Below are positions 14,392 through 23,691 of a stretch of DNA of 64,000 bases, one piece after another. Made by a program: the position numbers and the translations under genes. The stretch spans positions 1 to 64,000 of the forward strand of contig NZ_AP017470.1 of the NCBI RefSeq assembly GCF_016592575.1, read 5' to 3'. Origin of the DNA: Thermotomaculum hydrothermale. GTDB lineage: Bacteria; Acidobacteriota; Holophagae; Thermotomaculales; Thermotomaculaceae. The notes under the pieces were generated by a model. That model was not told the origin of the DNA. It saw nothing but the letters and a program-made list of their open reading frames with translations, and searched no databases. The first letter of the stretch is position 1. Each line of letters begins with the position of its first letter.

Positions 14392-15420
14392 GTGTTGTCT
14401 GAAAGGGAAGCAAAAATATTAAACATAATAGTTGAGTATTACATAAAGAAAGGGGAGCCTGTAGGTTCATCTTTTTTGGCTTCTCATTATTCAGAAAAAG
14501 GTAAATTTTTATCTTCTGCAACAATCAGGAATATCTTTAAGAAAATGGAAGAAAAGGAATTGATTGAAAAAACACACCTTTCCTCAGGAAGAATTCCCAC
14601 AAAAAAGGGTTTAAAGGTTTATCTGGAAAATCTAATAAATGACTTTAAAAGCAAAGGGGATAAAATTGATAAAAGTTTTACCCAAAAAATCAATATTCTT
14701 GCCGGTAGAGATTTAATCTCCAACCTTGAAACCTATGCTGAAATACTTGAAAAGGAAACAGGTGTTGTTTCTCTTCTCCTTTTGCCGGATTTGTTTACCA
14801 CTAAAATTAAAAGAATTGATTTTGTACAGCTTTCTCCTGAAAAGATTCTTGCAATTATAGTTTCAGTTAATGATTTTTATAGAGAGACTATTCTTGAAAT
14901 GCCTTATCCAGTAAATTATCAGCAGCTTATTGCAGCTGCAAACTACATTAATATGAATTTTTCAGGACTTACCCTCTTTGAAATCAAAAAAAGGCTTTTA
15001 AATTCAATTGAATCTGGGCTAAATCAATTAAATAATGTGGCAAAGAATATTGTTAAGCTTGCATACGAGAATATTGACAGGATTTACGGAGAAGAGAATA
15101 GCATAATAATAAAGGGGCTTTCTAACATTCTTGACGAAAGGTATGTAAAAGAGGTGAGGGTTTTAAAATCTCTTATGGAAAATTTTGAAAAAAAGAAAGA
15201 TATTTATCATTTGATTACAAGTTGTATAAATAAAGAATTGGCTTTTAACCTTGATTTTCCTGCTGAAAATTTCAGTTTAATTGTATCTTCATACAGTGTT
15301 GTAGGAGGGGGCAAAGGGGCTTTTGGGCTTGTAGGGCCTTTGAGGATGAATTACAAAAGAAATATCTCAATAATGAGGCAGATAACCCATTCTATAATTG
15401 AACAGTTATTTGTAAAATAA
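14392..15420 (+). CDS. hrcA: Heat-inducible transcription repressor HrcA
   Basis: A 342-residue winged-helix repressor that normally binds CIRCE and controls dnaK and groE operons. The N-terminus SEREAKILNIIVEYYIKKGEPVGS and SSATIRNIFKKMEEKELIEK near residue 42, together with SSGRIPTKKGLKVYL near 63, are the family DNA-binding signatures. The C-terminus has GPLRMNYKR near 323. Start is GTG 14392 with GAGG 7 bases upstream. It heads hrcA-grpE-dnaK-dnaJ, yet no CIRCE is visible in its own upstream region. Confidence 0.95.
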   Translation: MLSEREAKILNIIVEYYIKKGEPVGSSFLASHYSEKGKFLSSATIRNIFKKMEEKELIEKTHLSSGRIPTKKGLKVYLENLINDFKSKGDKIDKSFTQKINILAGRDLISNLETYAEILEKETGVVSLLLLPDLFTTKIKRIDFVQLSPEKILAIIVSVNDFYRETILEMPYPVNYQQLIAAANYINMNFSGLTLFEIKKRLLNSIESGLNQLNNVAKNIVKLAYENIDRIYGEENSIIIKGLSNILDERYVKEVRVLKSLMENFEKKKDIYHLITSCINKELAFNLDFPAENFSLIVSSYSVVGGGKGAFGLVGPLRMNYKRNISIMRQITHSIIEQLFVK

Positions 15421-15440: not shown

Positions 15441-16067
15441 ATGACTAAAGAGAAGGGAGAAAAAAGGAAAATGGGGGGAAAAAAGGTTGTTGAGGAAAAA
15501 GAAATTGAGGAAGTAAAAGATAATGAGAATCTGAAAAAACAGTTAGAGAATGCAAAAAATGAGATAAAAAGTTTAAAAGAGGAAAATGCTAAACTTAAAG
15601 AAGCGTATATTAGAAAGGTAGCAGATTTTGATAATTTAAAGAAAAGAACTCAAAAAGAGAAAGAGGATGCTATAAAATATGGAAATGCATCCCTGCTCTT
15701 ATCAATTTTAGATGTTGTTGACAATTTTGAAAGGGCTGTAGCTGTTGAGCCTGAAAAAAGTGATTTTCATTCTTTTTACGAGGGTGTAAGGCTTATCGAA
15801 AAACACCTTAAAGATATCTTGTTTTCTGCTGGGGTGGAAGAAATTAACCCTGAAAATCAGCCATTTGATCCTTTTTATCACGAAGCTATGATGAAGGAAA
15901 TGAGGGATGATGTCCCAGATGGCACTGTTACAGCTGTTTTTCAAAAGGGGTATAAATACAAAGATAGATTGTTAAGGCCTGCAAAGGTAAGAGTGGCTAT
16001 TAACCCGAAAGAGCATCAGGAAAAACAGGACAACCAGGCTAACGAGAAGAAAGAAAGTGAGGAATAA
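15441..16067 (+). CDS. grpE: Nucleotide exchange factor GrpE
   Basis: Releases ADP from DnaK. The 208-residue protein has a strongly charged, lysine/glutamate-rich coiled-coil N-terminus (to about 90) and the GrpE head domain, with RKVADFDNLKKRTQKE near residue 57 and NPENQPFDPFYHEAMM near 135. A GAGGTGG site precedes ATG 15441. It sits 20 bp after hrcA and 2 bp before dnaK, so co-expression is clear. Confidence 0.95.
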   Translation: MTKEKGEKRKMGGKKVVEEKEIEEVKDNENLKKQLENAKNEIKSLKEENAKLKEAYIRKVADFDNLKKRTQKEKEDAIKYGNASLLLSILDVVDNFERAVAVEPEKSDFHSFYEGVRLIEKHLKDILFSAGVEEINPENQPFDPFYHEAMMKEMRDDVPDGTVTAVFQKGYKYKDRLLRPAKVRVAINPKEHQEKQDNQANEKKESEE

Positions 16068-16069
16068 TT

Positions 16070-17878
16070 ATGGGAATTATCCTAGGAATTGATTTAGGTA
16101 CTACCAATAGTTGTTGCTGCTTTATTGAGAACAATACTCCGGTTCTGGTTCCTAACAAAGAGGGTTCAAGGGTAACCCCTTCAGTTGTTGCCTTTACAGA
16201 AAAAAAAGAAATATTTGTCGGGCATATAGCCAAAAGGCAGGCTATTACTAACCCTGAAAATACTGTTTACGGAATTAAGAGGCTAATAGGCAGGAAATAT
16301 GACTCCCCTGAGGTTCAGTCAATGCTTGATACCCTTCCCTACAAAGTTGTTCCTGCAGATAATGGAGATGCATGGGTTGAAATAAGGGGAGAAAAGTATT
16401 CTCCACAGGAGATTTCAGCCTTTATTTTAAAATCATTGAAAGAGAGTGCAGAAGAATATATTGGGCAGGAGGTAAAAGAAGCAATAATAACTGTCCCTGC
16501 TTACTTTAACGATGCCCAGAGGCAGGCAACCAAGGATGCGGGAAGGATTGCAGGGTTGGAGGTTTTGAGAATAATAAACGAACCTACCGCTGCTGCGTTA
16601 TCCTATAGAGACAACAATTTAAGAGGCAAGGTTGCAGTTTACGATTTAGGTGGTGGAACCTTTGATATCTCTATCTTAGATGTTTCTGAAGATGTTTATG
16701 AGGTTTTGTCAACAAGTGGCAATACATTTTTAGGTGGGGATGATTTTGATAAAAAGATAATGGACTGGATTATTGATTCTTTTAAAAAGAGTCAGGGGAT
16801 TGATTTAAGTGAAGACAAAATGGCTTTACAGAGGTTAAAAGAGGCTGCTGAAAAGGCAAAATGCGAGCTTTCTGTTTCGGAAGAAGTAGAAATAAACCTG
16901 CCTTTTATAGCAGCAGACGATACAGGTCCTAAACACTTTGTCTCCACTTTAAACAGAGAACAATTTAATGAAATGGTTAAAGACCTTGTTGAAAAAACCC
17001 TTGAACCCTGTGAAGAAGCGTTAAAGCTTGCAAACCTGAAAAAAGAAGATATAGACCATGTGATTCTTGTAGGTGGGCAGACAAGAACGCCTTTGATTAT
17101 TGAAACGGTAAGGGATTTTTTTGGGAAAGAACCAAGAAGGGATAACAACCCTGATGAAGTTGTTGCAATAGGTGCCGCTTTACAGGGAAGCATTATTTCT
17201 GGAGATGTTAAGGATATTGTACTGCTTGATATCACTCCTCTTTCTTTGGGTGTTGAAACAAAAGGTGGCTTGTTTGTTAAATTGATAGAGAGGGGTAGTA
17301 CAATTCCTACCAAAGCAAGCCAGATTTTTACAACTGTCACTCACAACCAGTCAAAAGTTGCCATCCATGTTTTGCAGGGGGAAAGTGAGCTTGCCAAAAA
17401 CAATATTTCGCTTGGGTACTTTGAACTTGTTGATATACCCCCGGCACCAAAAGGTGTTCCGAGAATTGAAGTTACATTTGAAATAGATGCAAATGGTATT
17501 GTTCATGTTAGTGCAATTGACCTGGATAGCGGTAAATCGCAGAGTATGGAGATTAGGCCATCAAGCGGTTTGTCAGAAAAACAAATTCAGGAGATAATAG
17601 AAAAAGCAGAGAAAAATAAGGAAGAAGAGGCGAGAATTAAAAGAGTTATTATGACAAAAAACTCAATTGAAAGTTTGCTTGCAAATATTGAAAAATCTTA
17701 TGCACAGTTTAAAGAGCAGATCCCTGATGATTTTAAGGAAAAGGTTAGAAATTCAATTTTAGAGGCAAAAAGTGCTTTAAAGGTGGATGATATTGAAGTT
17801 CTGGAAGATGTATTGGCGAATTTAAAGCAAATTTCAAATAAATTTACCAATTTTCTTCTTTACGGAAGTTTAAATTAA
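16070..17878 (+). CDS. dnaK: Molecular chaperone DnaK (Hsp70)
   Basis: ATP-dependent chaperone of 602 residues. The ATPase domain starts GIDLGTTNS, with VPAYFNDAQRQATKDAG near 143, the phosphate loop VYDLGGGTFD near 190 and the VGGQTRTP segment near 328. The substrate-binding domain includes DITPLSLGVET near 384. The C-terminal lid is shortened and lacks the glycine-rich tail ending in EEV seen in longer homologues. Central gene of the hrcA operon. Confidence 0.97.
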   Translation: MGIILGIDLGTTNSCCCFIENNTPVLVPNKEGSRVTPSVVAFTEKKEIFVGHIAKRQAITNPENTVYGIKRLIGRKYDSPEVQSMLDTLPYKVVPADNGDAWVEIRGEKYSPQEISAFILKSLKESAEEYIGQEVKEAIITVPAYFNDAQRQATKDAGRIAGLEVLRIINEPTAAALSYRDNNLRGKVAVYDLGGGTFDISILDVSEDVYEVLSTSGNTFLGGDDFDKKIMDWIIDSFKKSQGIDLSEDKMALQRLKEAAEKAKCELSVSEEVEINLPFIAADDTGPKHFVSTLNREQFNEMVKDLVEKTLEPCEEALKLANLKKEDIDHVILVGGQTRTPLIIETVRDFFGKEPRRDNNPDEVVAIGAALQGSIISGDVKDIVLLDITPLSLGVETKGGLFVKLIERGSTIPTKASQIFTTVTHNQSKVAIHVLQGESELAKNNISLGYFELVDIPPAPKGVPRIEVTFEIDANGIVHVSAIDLDSGKSQSMEIRPSSGLSEKQIQEIIEKAEKNKEEEARIKRVIMTKNSIESLLANIEKSYAQFKEQIPDDFKEKVRNSILEAKSALKVDDIEVLEDVLANLKQISNKFTNFLLYGSLN

Positions 17879-17902: not shown

Positions 17903-18988
17903 ATGAAAGACTACTATGCAATATTAGGTGTGGATAGAGACGCATCATTTGAAGAAATAAAAAAGGCGTACAGAAAATTGGCGTTAAAATACCATCCGGA
18001 TAGAAACCCTTCCCCGGAAGCAGAAGAAAAATTTAAAGAAATATCAGAGGCTTATGCTGTTTTGTCAGACCCGGAAAAGAGAAGACGCTACGATTCTGGT
18101 GGGTTTGACTCTATGGATATTGATTTTGAAGATCTTTTTGGCGGATTTGGTAGCATTTTTGATGTGTTTTTTGGTGGCGGTTCAAAAAGAAATTACAGAG
18201 ATAGATATTCACCTCGTAGAGGGAATGATTTACAGTACACCCTCCAGATCACCTTAGAGGAAAGTTTTAAGGGGACAGTAAAGGAAATTGAGATTGAAAG
18301 GTATGATATTTGTGAGCATTGTCAGGGTAGAGGGCTTGACGCTAATTCAAAGGTAACAACCTGTCCAAATTGCGGGGGCAGAGGCTCGGTAGTTTATCAG
18401 CAGGGTTTTTTTACAATGAAGACAACCTGTTCAAGATGTAATGGAAGCGGAACAATAATTTCCAATCCTTGTAAATTTTGTGGTGGTAAGGGGAGGATTT
18501 TAAGAAGGAAAAGGGTAAAAATAAAGATTCCTGCAGGGGTTGACAATGGTGATACTTTGAGAATTCAAAGGGAAGGAGAAGCTGGGATAAATGGAGGAGA
18601 TTACGGAGACCTCTATGTTGTAATAAGTATTAAAGAGGATAGGATTTTTTCCAGAAAAGGACAGGATTTATTTTTAGAGATTCCCATAACCTTTTCTCAG
18701 GCTGCATTAGGAGATAAAATTAGAATAAAGTATTTCGGAGAAGAGGTGGAGATAAACATTCCACCTGGTATCCAGTCTGGCGATTTAATTGAAGTTAAAG
18801 GCAAAGGATTCCCTGAGGTTGGGAAGGATAAAAGGGGTTCTTTATTTGTAAAGGCAATTGTAAAAACTCCAAAAAAATTGTCTCAAGAAATGAAAAAATT
18901 GTTTGAACAGTTAAGTGAGCTTGAGAAGAAAGAGCAGCCCTCTTTGTGGGAAAAGTTAAAGAATGTATTTGTTAAAAAAAGTGTATGA
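17903..18988 (+). CDS. dnaJ: Chaperone DnaJ (Hsp40, type I)
   Basis: Co-chaperone that stimulates DnaK. The 361-residue protein has a J domain with [16 protein letters not shown] near residue 28 (HPD motif) and a G/F-rich stretch (about 70-95). Four CxxCxGxG-type zinc repeats follow ([32 protein letters not shown]; about 138-200), then the C-terminal substrate domains. It begins 24 bp after dnaK, and its stop overlaps the start of the NrdD-like gene by 4 bases. Confidence 0.97.
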
Positions 18989-20754
18989 ATAAATCAAAAT
19001 TTGATTCTTTTGAAGATAAAACAATATTTGTTAAGGGAAGCAATCAGGAGATAACCCCCTGGGATAGGACAAAAATAATAGCCATACTGATGGATGAAAG
19101 CGGGTTGCCTTTCAGTGTTGCCGAAAAGATTGCAGAGGATGTCCAGAAAATTGTTTTTTCCTCCAATTTAAAGACAGTTTCTTCCTCTTTGTTGAGAGAA
19201 TTGGTAAATTCCAAATTAATTGAATACGGTTATTCAAAAATTTTAAACAAAACAAGAAGATTGGGCTTGTCTACTTCTGATGTAAAGGAAGTAATTTCAA
19301 ATGCTATGCCTTATAAAACTTATGCTCCGGTTTCTCCCATGCTTTCTTCAAACTATATTGCAGAAACTGTAAAAAGGCAATTTTCGGCTTTCAATATTTT
19401 TCCGGAGAAAATTGTAAATTTGCATTATGAGGGAAAGATTCACATAAACGGGATAAATGGAATAGACAGGCTCTATTCTGTAGCTTTAGATGTTTCAAAA
19501 TTGTTGACTTTTAAGTATGCTGGGGATAATTTTTTTGTAAATAAGCCTAACAATGTGAAAGATTTTTTTGAGAACTTAATTAAAACCCTCCTGTTTTTAA
19601 ACAATTTTGTAAATTCTTCAATTTTTATTTTCGGAATTGAAAAAGTTTTTAAGTACTTTAAAGTTACAGAGGAAGGTGCTGATTTTTTTATAGATTTCCT
19701 TAAGCATGTTGAAAGCCTTTTTTTGTCTGATAAGCCTTTAAAAATATTTTTGAAGGATAAAAACCTGATGGTAAAAGCGGCGAGGTTTTACTCTCAAAAT
19801 TTCTGTTTAAAATCTGAGATTGCAACTAAAAAAGCAAGTTATGTGCCTTCAAGAAATATATCAATATCAGATAGTTTTGTTGATAACTCATATTTTGTAA
19901 TGGAAAATGTTACATTGAATTTACCTGGAATAGCTTTACAGGCGAAATTAAAATCAAAGGATTTTTTTAAAGAGTTAAAAACTTACCTTGAAAGTGCTTT
20001 TATTGTTTTTGGCAAAAAGGGGATTTTTATTGAAAAAATGCTGATGACCAAAGGTCAGAGTGTTTTAGACTTCTTAAAAAAACTTGGATTTAATCCTCTG
20101 GCTTCTTATAACACTATTTCAATTTGTGGTCTACAGGAGTGTATTTCTCTGTTAAAAGAAAAGCATAAATTTAATGGTGAAGATTTAACTTTTGCAAATG
20201 ATATTTTTGTTTTTTTGAAGGAGTCTATAGAGAATTTAAAAGAAAAATATAAATTCAATGTTTTGATTTCTGATTCTGACCAGACGGATACAGCTTATAG
20301 ATTTGCCAGACTTGATTTGAAATTTGAGCCTTATTATATAGGAAAGGTGGTAAAGGGGGATATTTCTTACGGGGGTATTTTTTATTCCCATAATGCTTCC
20401 TTTTTAAGCAATCCGTATTTTGATATTTATGAGGCTATTGATGTAGAAGAAAATTTAAAAAAATATTTTGATTTCCCTTTTAAAACAGTAGTAAAACTAC
20501 TTGATTTTGATAATGTTAAGATTTCGTTAAGGGATAGAGGGTACAGGTATTTGATGTTGACACAGGATTTTTCGGTTTGTTATCATTGTACTGTTATGAA
20601 AAGCGGAATTTACAAGTCATGTCCGGAATGTTTGAGCGATGAAGTTTTTAATTACTTTTACCTTTACTCAAACTATGCTCCCTTTTCAAAATTAAACAGG
20701 GGCCTCAGGGTGATGATGGATAATATTGTGTATTATGAGGAGTTTACTATCTAA
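18985..20754 (+). CDS. ATP-cone, NrdD-like protein with altered glycyl-radical site
   Basis: A 589-residue protein that starts with an ATP-cone (about 13-85; [25 protein letters not shown]) and continues with weak similarity to class III ribonucleotide reductase NrdD ([14 protein letters not shown], a late GL-E helix segment). The C-terminal zinc site is intact in pattern: C532-x2-C535 and C546-P-x-C549. The following segment [13 protein letters not shown] aligns with the NrdD loop x-GY-x-P-x5-N-x-G, but the radical glycine would be Asn563. If the alignment is right, it cannot be a normal glycyl-radical enzyme. It overlaps dnaJ by 4 bases and so belongs to the heat-shock operon. Function unknown. 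Confidence 0.6.
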
Positions 20755-20776: not shown

Positions 20777-22426
20777 ATGAAGTCTTTTAAGACATTGTTT
20801 GCCTTGATGCTTATTGTCCTGGGCAGCATTGGCGTATTTGCTCAGGTAAACACCAAGGCAACCGTAATGGGAAAGGTTGTTGACGACACAGGTGCAGCAT
20901 TGCCAGGTGTGTCAGTTTTATTAACCAATGTTGAAACAGGTTACAAAAGAACTGTTATAACCGATGAAAATGGAAGATTCCAGGCTCCCTACTTGCCTCT
21001 TGGTAAGTACAATGTAGAGGCATCACTTTCCGGATTTTCCAAGTATACTGCAAAGAATTTAACACTCTCTCTGGGAGATGTTGTTACTTTAAACATTACC
21101 TTAAAACCTGAAAAATTAGAGGAGACAATCACTGTTACAGCTGAAGCTCCCCTTATTGAAACAAACAAGGTTGATGTTGAATCTAAAATTAGTGACCAGT
21201 ATATTGAGTCATTACCTGTTAATGGTAGAGACTTTAAGGACTTTGTTTTGTTAACCCCAGGTGTTGTTGAAGCTGCTGGTGATAGAGTTGCTGGAGAAGG
21301 AACAAGGGGTATTATGAATAACCTGCAGATTGACGGTGCAGGTTATAACTCAACCTTCTTTGGTGAGCAGAGAGGTTCTACAAGAATTCCTTTTACTTTT
21401 TCTCAGGAAACAATTAAAGAATTCAATGTTATTCAGAATGGATACTCAGCTCAGTACGGTGATGCTGCAGGACTTATCATTAACGCAGTTACCAAGTCAG
21501 GTTCTAACGAATTAAAGGGTTCTGCATGGTGGTACAAGAGAAAGAATGAATGGATGAGCTCTTATGCACCTAACGAATACATAAAAGACCTTGATAAGAG
21601 ACAGGTTCCTGATTTTGACCTTGATCAGTTTGGTGTAACATTGTCAGGTCCTATTATTAAGGATAAACTCTTTTACTTTTTTGCATACGATGGGCAGAGA
21701 AAAGATTTAACAACATACAGAGAGTTTAATCCTGCTCCTGGTATTGATGAATTCAGGCAGATGTTCCCTGATATAGTTAAGGCAAATGAAGGATGGTGGC
21801 CAGGAACTGAGGATAACGATGTTTACTTCCTTAAATTGGACTGGAATATTAACGAAGACCATCACCTCTCTTTCCGTATAAACTATCAGGATTTTGAAGC
21901 GATTAACGGGACAAACAATTACAGAACAAGTGGTATTACAAATAACGGTATTGAGAAGGATAAATCACTCTCAATCGTTGCAGAGTTAACCTCTGTTTTA
22001 AACGAAAACATGTATAACGATTTGAGAGTTCAGTATGCAAGGGAAGAAAGGCCAAGATATGCAAACACAACCGATATGATGGAAGTTGTAATCGGTTACT
22101 ATGATGCAACATTTGGTCAGAACAACTTCTTGCCTAACGGTTTGGACGAAGATACAGTTGAAATAATGGGATGCTTGGAGACCACACAATTAAGGCTGGT
22201 TTCGATTATAGTCATTACAAATATGACGACTACTTCTTCAGATACCAGGGTGGTAGGATTTCTTTCTATGGCAATTACTATGACTTTATTGCATGGGCAG
22301 ACGATGACCCAGATACAAATCCAAGAAAATTCTATAAGTATACTCAGGCATTTTCAGATATTGATGGAAGAGTTGATTACAATGCTGATGAGTATGCTCT
22401 CTATCTTGAAGACCAGTGGCAGGTAA
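20777..22426 (+). CDS. TonB-dependent receptor, N-terminal part (frameshifted)
   Basis: The signal peptide (about residues 1-22, ending VFA-Q) is followed by a carboxypeptidase-regulatory-like domain (GKVVDDTGAALPGVSV to about 110). The plug domain includes the VTAEAPLIET-type segment, LPVNGRDF and GLIINAVTKSGSN, and the first beta-barrel strands follow. The strong AGGAGG site selects ATG 20777. The true reading ends near 22168; the remaining codons to 22426 are out of frame, and the barrel continues in the frame starting at 22171. The full receptor would have about 970 residues, normal for Oar-like outer-membrane receptors. The ligand is unknown. Confidence 0.85.
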   Translation: MKSFKTLFALMLIVLGSIGVFAQVNTKATVMGKVVDDTGAALPGVSVLLTNVETGYKRTVITDENGRFQAPYLPLGKYNVEASLSGFSKYTAKNLTLSLGDVVTLNITLKPEKLEETITVTAEAPLIETNKVDVESKISDQYIESLPVNGRDFKDFVLLTPGVVEAAGDRVAGEGTRGIMNNLQIDGAGYNSTFFGEQRGSTRIPFTFSQETIKEFNVIQNGYSAQYGDAAGLIINAVTKSGSNELKGSAWWYKRKNEWMSSYAPNEYIKDLDKRQVPDFDLDQFGVTLSGPIIKDKLFYFFAYDGQRKDLTTYREFNPAPGIDEFRQMFPDIVKANEGWWPGTEDNDVYFLKLDWNINEDHHLSFRINYQDFEAINGTNNYRTSGITNNGIEKDKSLSIVAELTSVLNENMYNDLRVQYAREERPRYANTTDMMEVVIGYYDATFGQNNFLPNGLDEDTVEIMGCLETTQLRLVSIIVITNMTTTSSDTRVVGFLSMAITMTLLHGQTMTQIQIQENSISILRHFQILMEELITMLMSMLSILKTSGR

Positions 22427-23691
22427 CTGATAAATTATTTATTACATACGGTTTGAGATGGGAAGCACAGTACTATGATGATATGATAAATCCTAACCCA
22501 GCATTAACAAATGTTGATTTACCTGATTACACAGGTTACACAGCTGGTGGATACAACCTCCAGCAGATACCAGATGATTCTGATAACATTGCCCCAAGAT
22601 TTGCTTTAACTTATGATATTAAAGGTGACGGAAGCCAGTTAATCAGGTTTGGTGCTGGGTACTTCTATTCAAGAACACCTTCCCTTTTAGTTGCAAATGC
22701 AATGCTTACAAATGGTATTAATGTTATTAGAATGGATTTTTATCCTGGGGATGAGCTCTTCCCACATGATTTAAGTGATAGGATTAATCCATCTGAATTA
22801 ACACCTGAAAACCAGAGAGCTCCTTCTGTATTTGTATTTGCTCCTGATTTTGAAAACCCTGTAACTTTTAAAACATCTTTAAGCTATGAAGCTAAACTTA
22901 ATGAGAACTGGAAGTTTGGTATTGATTTGAAATATACAAGAGGTTATCACTTTGAAAGAAAACTTGATGTAAACTTAGGAATTAAAGATGCTGACCATGA
23001 CGGTGTTCAGGATACTGACGATTGCGGAAGATTACTCTGGGATTCAAGGCACAGACCTAACAGAGACTTCAACCAGATAATTATGTTTAAATCTGATGCT
23101 GAATCAAAGGCATCTTCTATTACATTTAGAATTGAAAAAAGGTATGCTGACAGATGGTCAATGTTTGCTTCTTATACATTAACAAGTGCATACGATAACG
23201 ATACCAACGAAAGAAGTGTTTCATCCTCTTCTTCATTCCCAACAAACCCGGCTAACTTAAATGATGACTGGGGAAGAAGTGATTATTACCACAAGGGTAT
23301 GTTTAAACTCTCCTTCACTGTTGACATTGGCTGGGGAATCAAACTCTCTGGTTACCACAGATTCTACACTGGAAGACCATGGAGTGCATATGCAGGTTAC
23401 GATGCTAACGGTGATTACTACAGAAACGACAGAGCATGTGTTGACGGCGTTGTTGAAGCAAGAAACACAAGAAGACAGCCTAACTTTGCTCAGACAGACT
23501 TGAGGCTTGCAAAGGTATTCAAGGTATGGAGAGGACATACCTTAGAGTTCATGATTGACTGCTTCAATGTATTTGATAGAGCAAACAGATGGACAACAAA
23601 CTATGACATTAGAAGATCCTACTTTGGAACATTAAACCATTCTACTTACACACCAAGGACATTCCAGTTAGGTCTCAAATACAGGTTCTAA
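22171..23691 (+). CDS. TonB-dependent receptor, C-terminal barrel part (frameshifted)
   Basis: A 506-codon frame that carries the rest of the outer-membrane beta-barrel. It has many aromatic, alternating strands, motifs such as EDQWQVTDKLFITYGLRWE near residue 79, and a C-terminal strand ending QLGLKYRF, typical of barrel proteins. It has no signal peptide or ribosome-binding site. Adding one G to the GGG run at 22168-22170 would join it to the upstream part in one frame. It is best read as the second half of one gene. Confidence 0.82.
   Translation: MLGDHTIKAGFDYSHYKYDDYFFRYQGGRISFYGNYYDFIAWADDDPDTNPRKFYKYTQAFSDIDGRVDYNADEYALYLEDQWQVTDKLFITYGLRWEAQYYDDMINPNPALTNVDLPDYTGYTAGGYNLQQIPDDSDNIAPRFALTYDIKGDGSQLIRFGAGYFYSRTPSLLVANAMLTNGINVIRMDFYPGDELFPHDLSDRINPSELTPENQRAPSVFVFAPDFENPVTFKTSLSYEAKLNENWKFGIDLKYTRGYHFERKLDVNLGIKDADHDGVQDTDDCGRLLWDSRHRPNRDFNQIIMFKSDAESKASSITFRIEKRYADRWSMFASYTLTSAYDNDTNERSVSSSSSFPTNPANLNDDWGRSDYYHKGMFKLSFTVDIGWGIKLSGYHRFYTGRPWSAYAGYDANGDYYRNDRACVDGVVEARNTRRQPNFAQTDLRLAKVFKVWRGHTLEFMIDCFNVFDRANRWTTNYDIRRSYFGTLNHSTYTPRTFQLGLKYRF

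Follow-up and report, generated by a model that had tools for sequence, protein, structure and literature searches.

Directly behind dnaJ in the heat-shock operon of Thermotomaculum hydrothermale lies a gene whose product, here called P0001, resembles NrdD, the class III ribonucleotide reductase (RNR). RNR is essential and its families are annotated automatically, and pseudoenzymes among them can mislead annotation. Can P0001 still act as a reductase, and, if it cannot, what has kept its gene in place? We analysed the gene in a window of 64,000 nucleotides (the whole stretch of DNA, positions 1 to 64,000 of contig NZ_AP017470.1) together with related proteins from other genomes. We conclude with high confidence that P0001 is a retained pseudoenzyme belonging to an NrdD-derived clade of Acidobacteriota.

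Gene order and overlap with dnaJ

P0001 is the 589-residue product of an ORF with an ATG start at 18985-20754 on the forward strand, where all the window genes described here lie. It is preceded by a gene that we take to be hrcA from its family (14392-15420), grpE (15441-16067), dnaK (16070-17878) and dnaJ (17903-18988), and is followed by a TonB-dependent-receptor-like outer-membrane gene with its own RBS (20777-23691). The host family, referred to as f1, comprises two genera, the genus of the window (g1) and a sister genus (g2), and the order hrcA-grpE-dnaK-dnaJ-P0001 orthologue-TonB receptor was found in f1 genomes wherever the context was fetched. The TGA stop of dnaJ overlaps the start of the P0001 gene by four bases, ATGA at 18985-18988, exactly as an earlier note on this DNA had described, and this overlap is kept in 7/7 f1 genomes checked, the window included, across the two genera. 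From the overlap we infer that P0001 would be co-transcribed with dnaJ. No CIRCE operator, the HrcA site, was found within the window at up to 3 mismatches from the consensus. The TonB-dependent-receptor-like gene reads as two overlapping frames in the window copy and as one long frame in relatives, and the break is either a frameshift or a sequencing error.

Profile matches and catalytic residues

The Pfam NRDD profile (PF13597) matched P0001 above its cut-off (E=1.3e-25), mostly in the C-terminal half, while the NCBIfam NrdD equivalog TIGR02487, whose cut-off is 326 bits, gave 81.5 bits (54-221 bits in relatives). The N-terminal domain (residues 15-87, 19027-19245) is ATP-cone-like: its Pfam score of 21.9 bits lies below the curated gathering score of 25.8, so the ATP-cone that had been described as kept is weakly supported by the sequence. 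The alignment places the domain at this position, its KRDG-type hairpin is not conserved, and the score reaches 29.0 bits in one relative. The C-terminal zinc site, also described as kept, was recovered as a putative zinc-binding CxxC...CxxC arrangement of C532, C535, C546 and C549 (20578-20631), all four of which are present in 27/27 Acidobacteriota pseudoenzymes.

When we aligned the C-terminus with active NrdDs, the radical-glycine position fell on Ser562 or Asn563 (20668-20673), depending on a one-residue indel. Neither is glycine, and an RVxGY-type loop with a C-terminal radical glycine was sought in P0001 and not found. The replacement of the radical glycine claimed in the earlier note therefore stands, while its assignment to Asn563 is one of two alternatives. 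The corresponding loops of same-class relatives read QSGYAPVSTFCRGK, QSAFSPVQYWCRGK and HSSFSPVSSWCLGK (QSAFSPV and HSSFSPV types), indicating that the loop of P0001 is homologous to the radical loop and that the residue there drifts. Across the clade this position varies among S, D, H, N, Y, Q, L, E and G. Members of g2 show (G/E)GYE, a GY dipeptide without the remaining fingerprint, and a glycine at or beside the old radical position is kept in these and in three members of another family (f3).

The losses extend to the active site. In a 50-protein alignment, 21/21 active NrdDs have the reductant cysteine and the thiyl-radical cysteine, and 0/29 pseudoenzyme rows have either (7 rows from f1, 20 from other Acidobacteriota and 2 from Planctomycetota). 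In the former active-site loop of P0001 (residues 161-165, 19465-19479), Ser165 occupies the position of the reductant cysteine of active NrdDs (Cys79 in T4). The same loop carries a clade-specific D161-R162, and residue 161 is Asp in 26/27 pseudoenzymes and not in active NrdDs. The lost thiyl-radical cysteine can be placed approximately at residues 295-296 (19867-19872); the register of this finger loop is uncertain, and the sole nearby cysteine, C274, is not conserved. Among f1 orthologues the only conserved cysteines are the four zinc ligands and C381, which is invariant there, yet aligned with neither catalytic cysteine. Neither the TPAE motif nor the GG substrate loop survives in P0001, and together with the two missing catalytic cysteines this takes the loss, as judged from the alignment, beyond what the earlier note described. 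There is no nrdG beside the P0001 gene, and the NrdG2 of the genome adjoins the canonical NrdD.

Predicted structure

A phmmer search of the PDB with P0001 gave no true match, only chance-level matches to CcpA, so that the fold had to rest on a model. The AlphaFold2 model, built on an alignment with proteins from related loci, reached a pLDDT of 80.9 and a pTM of 0.77. Its best PDB matches were class III RNRs (Foldseek E 2e-19), and VIA-align superposed it on a class III RNR with Z 28.2 over 488 residues at an rmsd of 3.1, while other glycyl radical enzymes scored far lower (Z about 17). The comparison of the model confirms an NrdD fold for P0001, and an outcome without such a fold did not arise. 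With this predicted fold, and with the radical glycine and both catalytic cysteines absent, the proposal of an NrdD-type pseudoenzyme is borne out.

A clade of NrdD-derived proteins across Acidobacteriota

A scan of genome contigs with the single P0001 sequence found no relative, and an HMM built from the f1 proteins retrieved relatives of about 700 residues in other Acidobacteriota families, with the same losses in their C-termini and cysteine loops. The clade is present in at least eight families. In 20/20 sampled genomes outside f1 (94-100% complete), the pseudoenzyme is the only PF13597 gene, leaving no catalytic NrdD in any of them; class I/II RNR is present in 20/20, and NrdG2 above the cut-off was found in none of the 20, appearing only in f1. 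The clade is thus not dependent on class III RNR. Since its members pass the Pfam NRDD cut-off, Acidobacteriota without a class III enzyme can be miscredited with anaerobic dNTP synthesis. A replacement of NrdR by the P0001 family was considered and rejected, as all 24 genomes tested have an NrdR of their own.

A tree that left out f3 and three long rows separated 22 pseudoenzymes from the active NrdDs by a branch with 100/99 support, which 100% of the bootstrap trees contained; adding f3 gave the same division (SH-aLRT 100). The f1 members lie on long branches and their place inside the clade is unsure, and P0001 groups with members that lack both cysteines and bear D-R(-P) in the former cysteine loop. 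Two Planctomycetota NrdD-like proteins (L075:7686-9632 and L082:6843-8606), each the only PF13597 gene found in its genome, lack both catalytic cysteines and the zinc/glycyl C-terminus; these group with other NrdDs on the tree, and an independent loss is therefore likely. Another NrdD, from a Clostridia MAG (L074:2212-6216), has a 1335-aa frame with an apparent intein inserted at the reductant-cysteine loop.

Outside f1 the relatives stand in varied contexts, away from the hrcA/dnaK/dnaJ chaperone genes, and no conserved neighbours were found there beyond those of close relatives. The search for homologues and their context thus returned relatives throughout the phylum and adjacency to dnaJ in f1 only. 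A link to DnaK/DnaJ, which had been suggested from the operon, holds as gene coupling within f1 and fails as a general rule. Since the coupling is limited to f1, it is not the general role of the clade, and since the neighbours differ elsewhere, they indicate no partner. PADLOC gave no match, so nothing points to a role in a known defence system.

Conservation in the host family and its canonical class III system

The P0001 gene is present in all nine f1 genomes, one copy being truncated where its contig stops and another containing runs of N, and the frame is open in every complete copy of the family. For three pairs within g2 we obtained dN of about 0.08-0.12 and dS of about 1.0-1.7, giving dN/dS of about 0.06-0.09, while saturated dS made the ratio not computable within g1. 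Judged by these substitution rates, the P0001 family is under purifying selection in g2. Within g1, identity was 52-63% for P0001 vs 72-92% for dnaK/dnaJ.

Canonical NrdD is encoded by a separate gene in all nine f1 genomes, and NrdG2 above the cut-off lies beside it in 4/4 f1 genomes tested. When a second, intact system was looked for in the host genome, nrdD and nrdG were found outside the window at G000:C1:101576-104568, where the glycyl-radical loop has an ORF of its own. This split of canonical NrdD occurs in all five g1 genomes (L001:1054-3363, corresponding to G000:C1:101576-103885, and L046, L047, L048 and L049). Behind its zinc site the main ORF has a heptad-like tail and then terminates. 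An ORF of about 65 residues begins directly beyond the stop codon (in genome G002 the frame differs); it has a heptad-like head and RVMGYHRPVSEFN(K/R)GKKSEF, and nrdG comes next. The g2 genomes encode NrdD as one chain. From this arrangement, g1 NrdD is possibly a two-part class III RNR. YfiD is a separate glycyl-radical 'spare part' of PFL (PMC8683613), which the split resembles, but the g1 radical loop is apparently present only on the separate piece. We found no literature report of such a split in NrdD. A PF02867-type RNR is present in 7/9 f1 genomes. In the host copy, of class II type (G000:C1:895309-897453), a gap separates the two matched stretches of a 1174-aa frame, and this layout recurs in the other f1 genomes that have that RNR.

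Alternative roles

We considered whether P0001 could heterodimerise with canonical NrdD and modulate class III dNTP synthesis, its place in the heat-shock operon tying this to stress. NrdD is a homodimer by nature, the two proteins are found together in all nine f1 genomes, and the model of P0001 retains the NrdD fold. However, the pseudoenzyme persists in 20/20 other genomes that have neither canonical NrdD nor NrdG2 above the cut-off, so that a partnership with NrdD cannot be the general role of the clade, and the two types sit on distant branches of the tree; we regard this possibility as unlikely. A co-factor, adaptor or client-selective partner of DnaJ/DnaK, held at a fixed ratio by translational coupling, would fit the ATGA overlap conserved across two genera and the conserved order from hrcA to the TonB receptor. 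Relatives in other families, however, lie away from chaperone genes, and profile searches found no chaperone-related domain in P0001, which makes a chaperone role quite improbable.

Two further explanations are very hard to sustain. One is that P0001 is an unusual radical enzyme using Ser562 as its radical residue, in the manner of aminoacyl radical enzymes. Ser562 is indeed one of the two candidates at the glycine position, and PFL-type enzymes are known to form radicals on residues other than glycine (PMC11528403), but the catalytic cysteines are absent, the residue varies across the clade, and NrdG2 above the cut-off is missing from 20 genomes; we give this reading almost no weight. The other is that the gene is decaying and functionless, which the faster evolution of P0001 than of the adjacent dnaK/dnaJ within g1 could suggest. 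Against it stand the open frames, the dN/dS of about 0.06-0.09 in g2, the zinc cysteines in 27/27 pseudoenzymes and the presence throughout the phylum, and we hold decay to be extremely improbable.

Proposed function of the clade

We favour the reading that P0001 is a retained pseudoenzyme whose role is binding rather than catalysis, and consider this combined claim probable. The clade descends from the class III RNR NrdD and has given up its radical chemistry, having lost the radical-relay cysteine, the reductant cysteine and nearly always the radical glycine, and in P0001 also the GG substrate-phosphate loop. The ten-stranded barrel, the zinc ribbon and, in most members, the ATP-cone-like N-terminal domain are kept. 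The clade is maintained by selection, and in most hosts it is uncoupled from the class III system. Its role may be that of a non-catalytic, ligand-binding regulator or scaffold, most likely a nucleotide-responsive one, in which the clade-specific D-R(-P) motif of the old active site may bind a new ligand and a partner would dock on the zinc ribbon or the barrel surface. In f1 this partner may have a part in proteostasis; alternatively, the gene may simply draw on the dnaKJ transcript for its supply.

That P0001 specifically is a nucleotide-responsive regulator is a tentative suggestion, to which we give well under an even chance. Nucleotide sensing is plausible, as descent from NrdD makes a nucleotide the obvious candidate ligand, but the sub-threshold score of the ATP-cone and its unconserved hairpin count against it. 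A wider reading, in which an RNR-derived family spread across the phylum gave up catalysis, gained a ligand site in the former active-site barrel and became a nucleotide-responsive regulator, and in which one lineage was translationally coupled to the DnaK/DnaJ operon and so ties nucleotide pools to folding, is doubtful.

Comparison with known systems

We found no literature on NrdD pseudoenzymes beyond one table entry for Chloracidobacterium. There, three species have an 'NrdD-like paralog (Class III)' tabulated as 'Present (no NrdG)' (PMC12816986, 2026); in the available part of that paper the paralogue is confined to the table, and neither the loss of catalytic residues nor the spread across the phylum is described. 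Two of our genomes (G149 and G210), inferred to be Chloracidobacterium, carry the clade pseudoenzyme without NrdG2 above the cut-off. The tabulated paralogue probably belongs to the same clade as P0001, and the entry agrees independently with our genomes that have the pseudoenzyme only.

Aminoacyl radical enzymes, in which Ala, Ser or Thr replaces the glycine, are catalytic PFL-type enzymes with activases (PMC11528403). They have in common with P0001 that a glycyl-radical-family protein bears a non-glycine residue, whereas in the clade of P0001 this residue varies freely and the catalytic cysteines are gone. The NrdR repressor joins a cone domain to a zinc ribbon, a combination that P0001 resembles with its cone-like domain and zinc ribbon, but NrdR has no barrel. 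Class III NrdDs of known structure (T4, Thermotoga maritima, Prevotella copri and Streptococcus thermophilus) share with it the barrel of about 480 residues and the zinc ribbon, and the cone-like N-terminal domain of P0001 has counterparts in many NrdDs. P0001 lacks the radical glycine, the catalytic cysteine pair, TPAE and the GG loop, and most hosts of the clade lack NrdG2 above the cut-off. The betaherpesvirus R1 homologues (M45/UL45) have the fold of the RNR large subunit, have lost catalysis and have taken on a new role; these are viral proteins of the class I fold that act on host signalling, and we claim no close sequence relation between them and P0001. A selected, non-catalytic protein with an RNR fold, in genomes without a class III enzyme, suggests that the NrdD scaffold has been reused.
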